Assembly (NCBI RefSeq): GCF_018476645.1
Contig: NZ_JAHCTB010000001.1
Span: 711,201 to 775,200, forward strand
DNA length: 64,000 nucleotides
Direction of reading: 5' to 3'
From: Aequorivita echinoideorum
GTDB taxonomy: Bacteria; Bacteroidota; Bacteroidia; Flavobacteriales; Flavobacteriaceae
The translations under genes and the position numbers were made by a program. Under the pieces are notes generated by a model. It saw only the letters and a list, made by a program, of their open reading frames with translations, had not been told where the DNA came from and did not search any database. Below are positions 17,340-19,446 of the stretch, piece by piece (position 1 is the first letter of the stretch; each line of letters opens with the position of its first letter).

Positions 17340-18443
17340 TTATTTACCCGAGGCAAATATTTCCTTTAACTGCTTCACCATACCTCCGTTTCCGGAAACT
17401 GTGATTTCGCCAATTTTGTCGGCGATGGTTTCAACAAATTCCATTTCCTTAAGCTTGTAAAGCATTTCGTTTTCTTCCATCAATTTGGCGGTGTTCAACA
17501 AGCTTCTGGTTGAAGCTGTTTCTTCACGCCTAGTGATTACGTTGGCTTGCGCTTTCTTTTGCGCCACCAATACTTGGTTCATAATATCCTTCATTTCACC
17601 GGTCAAAATTACATCACGGATACCGCAGTTCAATACCGCTACACCCAACTTAGCCGCGGCTGTCTTTGTGTCTTCAAACACAGCTTTCGCAATTTGCGCT
17701 TTGTTTTCCAAAAGCTCATCAAGTGTATATGTTCCCACGTACGCACGCAGCGCGAGCTGCAACGCAACGTACAATTGCTTTTCAAAATCCTTGTTTTCCA
17801 ACAACGCTTTCTCAATATCTATTACTTTGTACTGCGTGTCAAAGTTGATACGGATTGCAGCTTTGTCTTTGGTCAACAATTCCTGTCCGGCAACCTCAAA
17901 TTGCAATTGACGCAAATCTACCTTTGCGATTTTAATGGTTGTGTCATTTCTCCAGAAACGGTATGTACCGCTTTCCAAAGTTTTTACATACACATCGTCC
18001 ACAATGAATACCGCTTTTTCAAAAGCCGCCACCTCAAAAACCCTGATGTATTTGCTTAATTCAACATTGCTGAAAAGCGCTTTATCAATTTTTTCGGTGA
18101 TGTAGATTTTGCTCAAATCCGCAGTTGTGAATTCATACTCCATCAAACCTTTCCAAAAAGCGTAGCGTCCGGATTTCAAAACTTGGCTAAAGCGTCCATT
18201 TTTGTAAACCAAAACCAATTCGTTATCCTTCACTTCAATGATGTGAAGCATTGCTTTCAATTTTTCATCTTTCAGCAAAATTTCCAATTCCTTGGGTGCG
18301 TTAAAGGCTGCCGCCATGCTATATTGCAGCACCGTTTTGCCAAAACCCAACCAGTGGATACCTTGGGTGATTACGCCTTGGTAATCGCCCCTTTTAAAAA
18401 CCAAACCTACATTTCCCGCGTTGATTCTTACTCTTTTCATCAT
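17340..18443 (-). CDS. Slipin/SPFH (band 7) family protein
   Basis: 367 residues. An N-terminal region (NAGNVGLVFKRGDYQGVITQ; YKNGRFSQVLKSGRYAFWKG) is followed by an SPFH domain (KDKAAIRINFDTQYKVIDIE; LALRAYVGTYTLDELLENKA; LGVAVLNCGIRDVILTGEM) and a C-terminal charged helix (MNQVLVAQKKAQANVITRREE). Unlike classical slipins, no N-terminal transmembrane segment is evident. SPFH proteins assemble into oligomeric rings or cages at membranes. The 5' side on the same strand carries about 1 kb of structured non-coding DNA with tRNA-like RNAs (18966-19446), an unusual setting. From memory, some bacterial slipins occur near RNA-repair genes (RtcB, Ro60, Y RNA), but none of those are in this window. 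Either Met1 or Met2 may be the start. Confidence 0.9.
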   Translation of the reverse strand: MMKRVRINAGNVGLVFKRGDYQGVITQGIHWLGFGKTVLQYSMAAAFNAPKELEILLKDEKLKAMLHIIEVKDNELVLVYKNGRFSQVLKSGRYAFWKGLMEYEFTTADLSKIYITEKIDKALFSNVELSKYIRVFEVAAFEKAVFIVDDVYVKTLESGTYRFWRNDTTIKIAKVDLRQLQFEVAGQELLTKDKAAIRINFDTQYKVIDIEKALLENKDFEKQLYVALQLALRAYVGTYTLDELLENKAQIAKAVFEDTKTAAAKLGVAVLNCGIRDVILTGEMKDIMNQVLVAQKKAQANVITRREETASTRSLLNTAKLMEENEMLYKLKEMEFVETIADKIGEITVSGNGGMVKQLKEIFASGK

Positions 18444-18583: not shown

Positions 18584-18965
18584 TCGGGCTTTCGGCACTC
18601 GCTTTTATTTTTATTTTCAAAAAAAATAAAGAGCTCAAACAAAGCCTTAATCCCTAACGCACTTCATCTTCAATAATACCTACAAGGTTTTGAAAACCTT
18701 GCAGGAAAGGAAAACAGTAAAGGAAAACCATCCTTCCGGCACGGAAATACTGAGAATTTAAAAGAAAACTAATTGGTTTTATGCGAAGGGATTCAGCCGA
18801 AAGATTATTCAAAAAAGCGAACAATCCTTTCAAAAGAACCCGATTGCGAAAAGCAACTACTTTCGGTTTTTAAATTTGTCAGTATTTCAAAGTACTTTTT
18901 GGACTGTTTTTATTTCCGAAGAAATAGCAACCGATTTTCCATTTACTCTTTTCATCACAATTTTT

Positions 18966-19005
18966 ACAGCGTGACAGGCTGTTGGTCTGTTTTTAAAAGT
19001 TGACC
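18966..19005 (-). ncRNA. tRNA-Asp-like D-arm plus anticodon-arm element
   Basis: On the minus strand a D-arm-like hairpin (GGTC 19005-19002 with GACC 18987-18984, 14-base loop) is followed by one A and by a perfect 5-bp anticodon arm, ACAGC-CTGTCAC-GCTGT (18982-18966), with anticodon GTC (Asp) and T33 in place. No variable loop, T-arm or acceptor follows. The loop end and 3' stem (CACGCTGT) are identical to the 3' half of the permuted Asp element at 19198-19191, so the two are related. Confidence 0.55.
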
Positions 19006-19040
19006 TTCTTTGTTGAATGGTGGATTTTTAATCCTTTTCA

Positions 19041-19121
19041 TAGATGCTAGAACCTAAATCTAGTGCGTTTACCATTTCGCCATCCGCCAAATTGCGGAGC
19101 AGGAATCGAACCTGCAATCTA
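19041..19121 (-). tRNA. Permuted tRNA-Leu(UAG): 3' half before 5' half
   Basis: Reading the minus strand: TAGAT (19121-19117, variable-arm 3' strand), T-arm GCAGG-TTCGATT-CCTGC (19115-19099), acceptor 3' strand TCCGCAA (19098-19092), two linker bases, acceptor 5' strand TGGCGGA (19089-19083), T8-G9, D-arm GCG-loop with GG-CGC (19080-19065), and anticodon arm CTAGA-TTTAGGT-TCTAG (19063-19047) with anticodon TAG. Then comes ATCTA (19045-19041), which pairs perfectly with the TAGAT at the beginning. So all arms of a Leu tRNA with a long variable arm are present, but the order of halves is swapped and the ends lie in the variable arm. The acceptor pairs 6 of 7 (one G-A mismatch). This is drawn from pairing by eye; function and processing are unknown. 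Confidence 0.7.
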
Positions 19122-19123
19122 CT

Positions 19124-19198
19124 CCTGTTGTTCTAACCAAACTGAACTAACTCAAATCAAAATTGAGTGTGGGAGTCGAACCCACGACCTACAGCGTG
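19124..19198 (-). tRNA. Permuted Asp-type tRNA: 3' half before 5' half
   Basis: Reading the minus strand: CAC plus anticodon-stem 3' strand GCTGT (19195-19191), variable loop AGGTC (19190-19186), T-arm GTGGG-TTCGACT-CCCAC (19185-19169), acceptor 3' strand ACTCAAT (19168-19162), five linker bases, acceptor 5' strand TTTGAGT (19156-19150), T8-A9, D-arm GTTC-AGTTTGGTTA-GAAC (19147-19130), A26, and anticodon-stem 5' strand ACAGG (19128-19124). Acceptor strands pair 6 of 7; anticodon strands pair 4 of 5 across the permutation; D and T stems are perfect; the variable loop has the normal 5 bases. The break falls in the anticodon loop. The Asp assignment rests on the CACGCTGT match to the complete GTC anticodon arm at 18966-18982. 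It abuts the permuted Leu element. Confidence 0.68.
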
Positions 19199-19203
19199 TG
19201 ATC

Positions 19204-19278
19204 GTTTTTTGGGAAACAACCAAAACCTTCAAGTCAAGTTGGATATAAAACCGCAATGTATTGCTGCAACGGTTTATA
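19204..19278 (-). other. Two hairpins ahead of the permuted tRNAs
   Basis: On the minus strand, TATAAACCG-type pairing (19244-19253 with 19270-19278, one bulged A) encloses an inner GCAAT/ATTGC stem. It is followed by GTTTTGG (19226-19220) pairing with CCAAAA..C (down to 19204). Both lie between the canonical tRNA-like gene and the permuted halves and could be processing or spacer structures. Evidence is by eye only. Confidence 0.35.
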
Positions 19279-19373
19279 CAATGGTGCTATACTGAAACAC
19301 GCAACAAGACTTACTTGATAACTTAAATTCCAAATACCTGAAACTTTTAACTTGAAACTTGAAACTACTTTCG

Positions 19374-19446
19374 CAGTACCGATGGGACTCGAACCCATAC
19401 CTTCCCCATAGACAGTGGGGCGCTCTAGCCTTTGAACTACGGTACT
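19374..19446 (-). tRNA. tRNA-Asp(GUC)-like, canonical cloverleaf
   Basis: A 73-base minus-strand cloverleaf with every stem perfect: acceptor AGTACCG/CGGTACT, T8-A9, D-arm GTTC-AAAGGCTA-GAGC, anticodon arm CCCCA-CTGTCTA-TGGGG (anticodon GTC at 19413-19411), variable loop AAGGT, T-arm ATGGG-TTCGAGT-CCCAT, discriminator G; CCA is not encoded. G73 and G10 fit Asp identity, but position 38 is A where C is expected for Asp tRNAs, and the acceptor sequence is unusual. It may be a divergent or specialised tRNA. It stands 26 bases after the TPR gene stop and upstream, on the same strand, of the permuted tRNA elements and the slipin gene. Confidence 0.75.

Follow-up and report, generated by a model that had tools for sequence, protein, structure and literature searches.

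Tandem permuted tRNA-like units upstream of an SPFH/Band-7 gene in Aequorivita echinoideorum and other Bacteroidota, a predicted tRNA mimic

The locus and its two permuted units

The window, that is the whole stretch of 64,000 nucleotides of Aequorivita echinoideorum DNA analysed in this study, carries on its minus strand a gene for an SPFH/Band-7 protein of 367 amino acids (17340..18443), which was identified with the Pfam Band_7 family (E 5.4e-28, residues 142-308). Directly upstream of this gene and on the same strand, a non-coding RNA consisting of a 5' block, two tRNA-like units (unit 1 and unit 2) and a 3' block is proposed at 18705..19320; its ends are approximate and follow conservation, and its transcription is predicted. 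An ordinary but divergent second tRNA-Asp(GTC), called by ARAGORN at 19373..19446 of the minus strand, lies just upstream of the RNA block. The preliminary description of this DNA was limited to 19041-19198, and the two units are found there, but the feature reaches beyond them as a block of about 0.6 kb before the SPFH gene.

Both units, read on the minus strand from 19200 to 19041, present the T-arm and the 3' acceptor strand first, followed by the 5' acceptor strand and the D-arm. This is the permuted order of halves that had been claimed earlier, and each of the pairings listed for it is present in the letters. Unit 1 starts with the 3' strand of the anticodon stem, GCTGT (19195-19191), and the variable loop AGGTC (19190-19186), both recognized from the sequence and from the strands of relatives. 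These are followed by the T-arm (19169..19185), the acceptor 3' strand ACTCAAT (19162..19168), the 5-nt linker TTTGA (19161-19157), the acceptor 5' strand TTTGAGT (19150..19156, six of seven pairs), the D-arm (19130..19147) and the 5' strand of the anticodon stem, ACAGG (19124..19128, four of five pairs with GCTGT), after which the anticodon loop is missing. Unit 2 is a complete permuted cloverleaf with an anticodon loop. It comprises the variable-arm strand TAGAT (19117..19121), the T-arm (19099..19115), the acceptor 3' strand TCCGCAA (19092..19098), the linker TT, the acceptor 5' strand TGGCGGA (19083..19089, again six of seven pairs), the D-arm (19065..19080), the Leu(UAG)-like anticodon arm CTAGA TTTAGGT TCTAG with the triplet TAG (19047..19063) and the second variable-arm strand ATCTA (19041..19045), which forms five of five pairs with TAGAT. 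All these elements lie on the minus strand. The T-arms were assigned from the sequence and from relatives, the acceptor strands from covariation, the D-arms from the sequence and RNAalifold and the variable-arm strands from the sequence and a pairing comparison, whereas the linker and 5' anticodon-stem strand of unit 1 and the anticodon arm of unit 2 were read from the sequence. A recount of the pairs agreed with the earlier claims for both acceptor stems, for the 5-base Asp variable loop, for the Asp anticodon stem and for the Leu variable arm, and the statement that a tiny loop joins the natural ends, closing the acceptor, was also right.

The genus set comprised 28 genomes, the window's own included, and blastn recovered the region at 82-91% identity in three of the 27 others, one of the matches being partial. 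Genomes G003 and G025 match the region at nearly full length and G020 matches its 3' part only, because the G020 contig ends there. In the G020 assembly, breaks flank the region of the tRNAs and permuted units on either side (contigs C2 and C159), as though short-read assembly had failed there. The place occupied in the window by the second tRNA-Asp holds Phe, Lys, Glu and Asp tRNAs in G003 and Asp and Tyr tRNAs in G025; the extra tRNAs here thus form an array that varies between genomes.

Both G003 and G025 conserve unit 1; their unit 2 is Lys(UUU)-like, in place of the Leu(UAG)-like one of the window. The permuted acceptor of unit 2 differs between these two genomes by paired changes (TCCTAAC with ATTAGGA versus TCTCGAT with ATCGGGA). 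RNAalifold, run on the window with G003 and G025 (the latter shortened at its 5' side), found the T-arm, acceptor and D-arm of both units unprompted and in permuted order, and 7 of 37 pairs were changed on both sides among the window and these two closest full-length relatives. The paired changes, the switch of identity and the RNAalifold result therefore indicate that order and pairing persist through changes of sequence and identity. Folded by itself, the window stretch did little better than its shuffles (z -1.9); this fold forms the unit 1 T-arm, six unit 1 acceptor pairs and five pairs of the unit 2 permuted acceptor, and is without the unit 1 D-arm, the unit 2 T-arm and the unit 2 anticodon stem.

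Standard tRNA tools did not recover this architecture. ARAGORN called neither unit in the window, the ordinary tRNA-Asp (19446-19373) being its sole call nearby. The Rfam tRNA model, which assumes canonical order, matched the window at 19089-19017 with 29.7 bits (cut-off 29), G003 with 36.0 bits (no T-arm) and G025 with 36.7 bits (no anticodon arm), and partial matches of this kind at or above the Rfam cut-off were also found in several other loci. Of the matches in G003 and G025, each lacks an arm or spans two units, and neither agrees with the paired changes. A model (R1) was built from six units and 20 artificially permuted native tRNAs, so that its matches in the window, G003 and G025 hold by construction; over 397 family genomes it gave a match in 382, and many of the 30 loci inspected were tandem ordinary tRNAs, which makes it unsuited to counting carriers. 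A known large RNA was also considered and rejected: at the gathering score, Rfam returned only tRNA, one tRNA-Sec and Flavo-1 in 17 further loci, and in a lenient scan of the window region all names other than tRNA, YrlA and a tmRNA fragment were far below their gathering scores.

Conservation of the permuted stems and of the SPFH link

A single DNA pattern, describing unit 1 as a T-arm, a gap and a D-arm with an anticodon-stem strand, was scanned over one genome per species in 84,980 species. It gave 63 stretches, all Bacteroidota by title, including Flavobacterium, Winogradskyella, Tenacibaculum, Aquimarina, Kordia, Mesonia, Zunongwangia, Ulvibacter and one Saprospiraceae. A 64th match (L152), the only one from viral contigs, reads as ordinary neighbouring tRNAs and was removed before the counts. 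Together with the window, G003 and G025, the stretches make 66 loci; L090 and L120 are from one assembly, and the counts are of loci, not of species.

The acceptor strands of unit 1 were placed by position and not by complementarity, as the seven bases after the T-arm and the seven before TAGTTCAG. There are 46 distinct stems in the 66 loci and 90.4% of their cells are paired, as against 52.9% (sd 2.7, maximum 62.1) when the 3' and 5' strands were re-dealt 2000 times. Positions one to six show four to six standard pair types each; positions six and seven, beside the hairpin loop, are looser (39/46 and 25/46 paired). For unit 2, 52 distinct stems in 62 loci gave 89.3% paired, a figure that is biased because the register was chosen for pairing; three loci (L121, L127 and L128) were omitted from this count because their automatic register was judged wrong. 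Over the 65 loci of the unit 2 table (L112 had no T-arm match), the mean best pairing was 6.2 of 7 with a locus's own tails and 5.2 with the tails of other loci. The variable arm of unit 2 showed longer own pairing than swapped pairing in 9 loci (means 5.7 versus 4.3). Covariation in the anticodon stem of unit 1, where TCTAT/ATAGA, TCTGT/ACAGA, ACTAT/ATAGT and GCTGT/ACAGC pairs occur among relatives, was weak (12 distinct stems, 91.7% versus 82.5%, the best shuffle being equal to it).

The preliminary description had proposed to look for the cross-half stems in relatives and had argued that random decay does not account for them; the stems proved to be strongly conserved, and covariation across the loci bears out the argument. 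That the units are decayed remains of a tRNA array, as the extra tRNA genes adjoining the block might suggest, is refuted by the covariation over so many distinct stems and is also opposed by the conserved flanks and the gene link, which leaves this explanation with almost no likelihood. The permuted layout is due neither to chance nor to decay. In a strict scan, where six of six inner acceptor pairs were demanded, three units were found in 2 of the 66 loci, two in 29, one in 28 and none in 7, and the rest of the same loci (869,353 bases, both strands) gave 14 background matches. Three permuted units were seen by eye in L104 and L122 and by the model in L165 and L166; unit number is therefore not fixed.

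Conservation extends to the flanking blocks. The conserved block begins with TATCAAG or a close variant (at 19320 in the window), and the end of a tRNA gene lies at most 6 nt from the block start in 4 of 61 loci. The upstream motif GTGTTTCNGTATNGCAC was found with a strict pattern in 45 of 64 loci, the false match L152 being among the misses, and most of the remaining loci have it off by a base or two, by eye. The first 100 nt or so of the block are predicted to contain a long-range stem, with its 5' strand (YCAAR-CNRG) near the RNA start at 19302..19320 and its 3' strand CAACTTGACTTGAAGG at 19226..19241, both on the minus strand; as judged by eye in 61 loci the partners vary together, for example TCAAGCTAG/CTAGACTTGA and TCAAACAAG/CTTGATTTGG.

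Downstream of unit 2, a short hairpin is read from the sequence at 19022..19034 of the minus strand, and in many relatives it resembles an anticodon arm (GGA CTCAAAA TCC). Anticodon-arm-like hairpins with changing triplets follow the unit 2 acceptor in 58 of 65 loci, compared to 11 of 65 shuffled segments, in a scan that demands the loop form and in which the hairpin is unit 2's own anticodon arm in many loci. A free-standing hairpin, ACAGC CTGTCAC GCTGT (18966..18982, minus strand), has the loop of the native Asp anticodon arm, and in G025 its stem is CCAGC/GTTGG, one pair being changed on both sides. Many other carriers have different hairpins at this position. A three-piece Asp tRNA using this hairpin was considered and rejected, as its flanks are not kept matched to unit 1 in relatives. 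The 3' block also contains the conserved motif GTACTTTGAAATACTGACA (18877..18895, minus strand), whose core ACYTTGAR occurs in 27 of the 64 loci with enough sequence and in 2 of 64 after shuffling. The RNA is closely followed, at 18679-18705, by a near-perfect palindrome of 27 bases, CCTACAAGGTTTTGAAAACCTTGCAGG, which has no second copy in the window. A near-identical copy is located within the 3' block of the G025 homologue (L035), and the palindrome therefore looks like a small mobile repeat.

The link with the SPFH gene was found in both search directions. ORF clustering placed the gene downstream and on the same strand in 60 of 63 loci, 430-871 nt after the unit 1 T-arm; the remaining three are uninformative because their stretches end too soon (123, 182 and 764 nt past the match start). 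Conversely, an SPFH profile search of 395 genomes of a phylum sample detected 20 carriers, the window's own genome included, and 19 of these (18 of 19 without the window) have a permuted-unit match about 270-750 nt upstream of the gene, with two or more such matches in 17 genomes. In the one exception (L179), inspection by eye shows ATCAAC/GTTGAT after a T-arm. A phage origin was rejected on both levels, since phage records held no similar sequence except a 37-base tRNA-Leu piece and no SPFH relative at 1e-10, and none was confirmed in viral contigs. Plasmid records gave no DNA match to the region.

This arrangement brings in the main rival to a separate RNA partner, namely that the block acts in cis as the leader of the SPFH gene and that its tRNA-like units work as a switch of SPFH expression that responds to tRNA cleavage or to the supply of tRNA. 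The position directly upstream on the same strand is in line with such a leader, and so is the nearly constant spacing of 14 loci (13 of them titled Flavobacterium), where the SPFH start lies 430-437 nt after the unit 1 T-arm. The palindrome, read as a terminator-like hairpin (18705-18679) before the SPFH gene, would also fit, but it is weak evidence because it is found inside the G025 block as well. In our judgement, the length of the block and its tandem units exceed the apparent need of a switch, and we regard a leader as an unlikely though serious explanation.

Comparison with known systems and gene content

The preliminary description had stated that no standard description of such genes exists from bacteria, and this does not hold: according to PMC8394870, the bacterial YrlA RNA includes a domain that resembles a tRNA and has the D, T and acceptor arms. 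The Rfam YrlA model alignment (RF02553) has the order T-arm, acceptor, D-arm, as in the units of the window, and YrlA shares with them the character of a permuted tRNA mimic with a closed acceptor. At a lenient threshold this model matched the window at 19208-19100 over its full length (E 1.2e-4, 31.4 bits), and in two relatives unit 2 scored 45.4 and 41.7 bits; all three scores are below the gathering score of 69, and none of 17 further loci gave a match at that score. According to PMC8394870 and PMC7790460, YrlA stands with rsr and rtcBA in Salmonella and is described as an RNA of 90-150 nt with one tRNA-like domain, bound by the TROVE protein Rsr, whereas the present locus has an SPFH partner gene, usually two units in a block of about 0.6 kb and an anticodon arm kept in unit 2. 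The TROVE (Ro60/Rsr) protein was found in none of the 28 genus genomes, in a search that was positive in one of 14 control genomes (Deinobacterium). A bacterial Y RNA of the YrlA type, bound by Ro60/Rsr, is in spite of the shared order of arms an improbable identity for this RNA.

The window's genome (completeness 99.96%) and those of G003 (89%), G025 (99%) and G020 (87%) gave no match for RtcB (PF01139) or for an Rnl2-type RNA ligase (PF09414), the two families covered by the ligase searches. RtcB is present in two of the 28 genus genomes, neither of which has a DNA match to the region. It is therefore unlikely that the halves are re-joined into a tRNA. The window's genome has 34 other tRNA matches, and the ARAGORN calls include ordinary Asp, Leu(UAG) and Lys(UUU) tRNAs, so that a use in decoding would need another ligase and adds nothing obvious. 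Since RtcB, PF09414 and TROVE are all undetected in the four carriers, a repair role there is unsupported by the gene set.

These observations bear on whether the units are tRNA genes at all. Permuted tRNA genes of algae and archaea likewise have the 3' half before the 5' half, and according to PMC3978253 they yield decoding tRNAs through splicing enzymes, of which there is no sign here. By this explanation a circularised transcript would be opened at the acceptor end to give decoding tRNAs. The full permuted cloverleaf of unit 2 with its anticodon and the short linkers joining the acceptor ends agree with it, and so does the ACCA that follows the acceptor strand at the start of the unit 2 linker in 3 of 65 loci (L093, L100 and L133). 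These ACCA linkers hint at a descent of these units from encoded tRNA 3' ends or at a likeness to such ends that persists. CCA also occurs elsewhere in five unit 1 linkers and in the unit 2 linker of L098; it is missing from most linkers, the window's own two among them. Set against this explanation are also the missing anticodon loop of unit 1, the undetected ligases, the ordinary tRNAs for the same codons and the different identity of unit 2 between close relatives, and we consider it quite improbable. From the earlier claim of permuted tRNA genes, the permuted order and the closed acceptor are retained and the designation as tRNA genes is not, the few ACCA linkers being the point in its favour.

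A two-piece tRNA was likewise considered, in which RNase P and a 3'-end enzyme would cut the linker and the unit 2 strands would work unjoined, in the manner of the two-piece tmRNA. The latter, according to PMC3978253, arises from permuted genes and has a permuted tRNA-like domain in bacteria, whereas the window and its relatives gave only weak Rfam tmRNA matches, below the cut-off. Unit 2 is opened in its variable region with the anticodon arm kept, which would suit such a molecule, as would the ACCA of a few linkers. The unit 1 linkers of 0 to 24 nt, the lack of CCA in most linkers and the strongly altered D-arms of the Flavobacterium unit 2 copies speak against it and make it very improbable.

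RNA-repair genes recur beside the locus in some relatives. The neighbourhood of the 63 loci contains RtcB in 11 (in six of them soon after the SPFH gene), an Rnl2-type RNA ligase in 5, RlaP in 4, a WYL protein in 9, an RNase_T exonuclease in 7 and a TPR-like protein in 21. The names are those of the Pfam family of one member each, and TPR was named from the window's copy, just under the Pfam cut-off. Most of the 63 loci have no RNA-repair gene nearby. A 'novel tRNA-like molecule' is reported by Burroughs and Aravind (2016, NAR 44:8525) to accompany SPFH/Band-7 modules in RNA-repair systems. The SPFH/Band-7 gene, the neighbouring RNA ligases and RlaP and the tRNA-like RNA resemble this module; in contrast, no ligase was detected in the window's genome.

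Outside Bacteroidota, SPFH homologues were found in a plasmid collection from Citrobacter, E. coli, Burkholderia, Photobacterium and Subdoligranulum, and in Citrobacter the gene order is rtcR, slipin, nucleotidyltransferase. The leaders of Citrobacter and E. coli have a T-arm followed by TTTCAT/ATGAAA and ATTCAT/ATGAAT, respectively, which is a paired change, and the Subdoligranulum record has TACATCC/GGATGTA after its T-arm. Upstream of the SPFH homologues of Burkholderia and Photobacterium (L159 3998-4070; L160 4467-4608), ARAGORN called tRNA-like elements in normal order with mostly odd anticodons, so permutation is not universal; the Burkholderia leader pair gave no useful alignment. With the leaders of Photobacterium, Burkholderia, Subdoligranulum and Citrobacter interpreted by eye, tRNA-like leaders appear to accompany the SPFH family beyond Bacteroidota, and to be permuted in some lineages.

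Among the literature matches listed, permuted tRNA-like RNAs beside SPFH genes are not described. A tRNA-like RNA with SPFH has reportedly been described before. What appears to be new here is the presence in Bacteroidota of tandem, permuted units that swap identity, even where no repair ligase is detected.

Predicted role of the RNA

In our study, the locus is best read as a non-coding one in which two permuted tRNA-like units are fixed to an SPFH/Band-7 gene, and its RNA is probably a tRNA mimic that helps the SPFH protein to respond to tRNA damage, as a scaffold or as a decoy. The predicted RNA is likely to be a mimic and not a working tRNA, and its role as the partner of the SPFH protein in such a response is inferred. 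The block at 18.7-19.3 kb would be transcribed, and the SPFH protein may bind the RNA, probably as a ring or cage like its fold relatives. The closed acceptor end would bar the units from charging and translation, and the tRNA elbow, together with the anticodon arm of unit 2, would be left as bait for tRNA-binding enzymes, which may be tRNA-cleaving toxins or processing or repair enzymes. Unit identity is exchanged (the anticodon is Leu-like here and Lys-, Met- or Asn-like elsewhere), which would fit a bait that tracks changing attackers. The closed acceptor, the intact elbow, the anticodon arm of unit 2 and the change of identity would be explained together by a decoy or tether. Some points do not favour this reading: the ACCA of the three unit 2 linkers is unneeded by a pure mimic, seven loci have no unit in the strict scan, and the RNA next to the SPFH gene could equally be its regulatory leader.

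Reports on other bacteria offer some support for a mimic acting with the SPFH protein, none of them being directly on the present RNA. According to PMC10272220, Anabaena without TrcR showed a 42-fold increase of a slipin gene and a 77-fold increase of rtcB, and TrcR was also found to repress a 26-tRNA operon. The rtc locus of P. aeruginosa contains an SPFH gene, according to PMC13086221, and in PMC7790460 it was suggested that YrlA inhibits an anticodon nuclease by competition.

A more specific and tentative extension of the decoy reading can be speculated. The eukaryotic vault is composed of the major vault protein and vault RNA. By analogy, Bacteroidota may possess a vault-like ribonucleoprotein in which an SPFH protein with tandem beta repeats cages a long RNA with tandem permuted tRNA mimics, forming a tunable anti-toxin decoy; the acceptor stems and anticodons of the mimics would have been exchanged over evolution. 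This is possible, though we would not presume it.

The findings show that permuted tRNA architecture has been maintained as a solution by many bacteria outside the Y RNAs, and they tie it to one protein family. There is also a gain for annotation, as tRNA gene finders overlook these units or report fragments of them as normal tRNAs. With acceptor and anticodon sequences that change fast while the fold stays fixed, the units provide a natural panel of tRNA mimics, and a comparison of this panel with local toxins that cleave tRNA would offer a direct test of the decoy idea.
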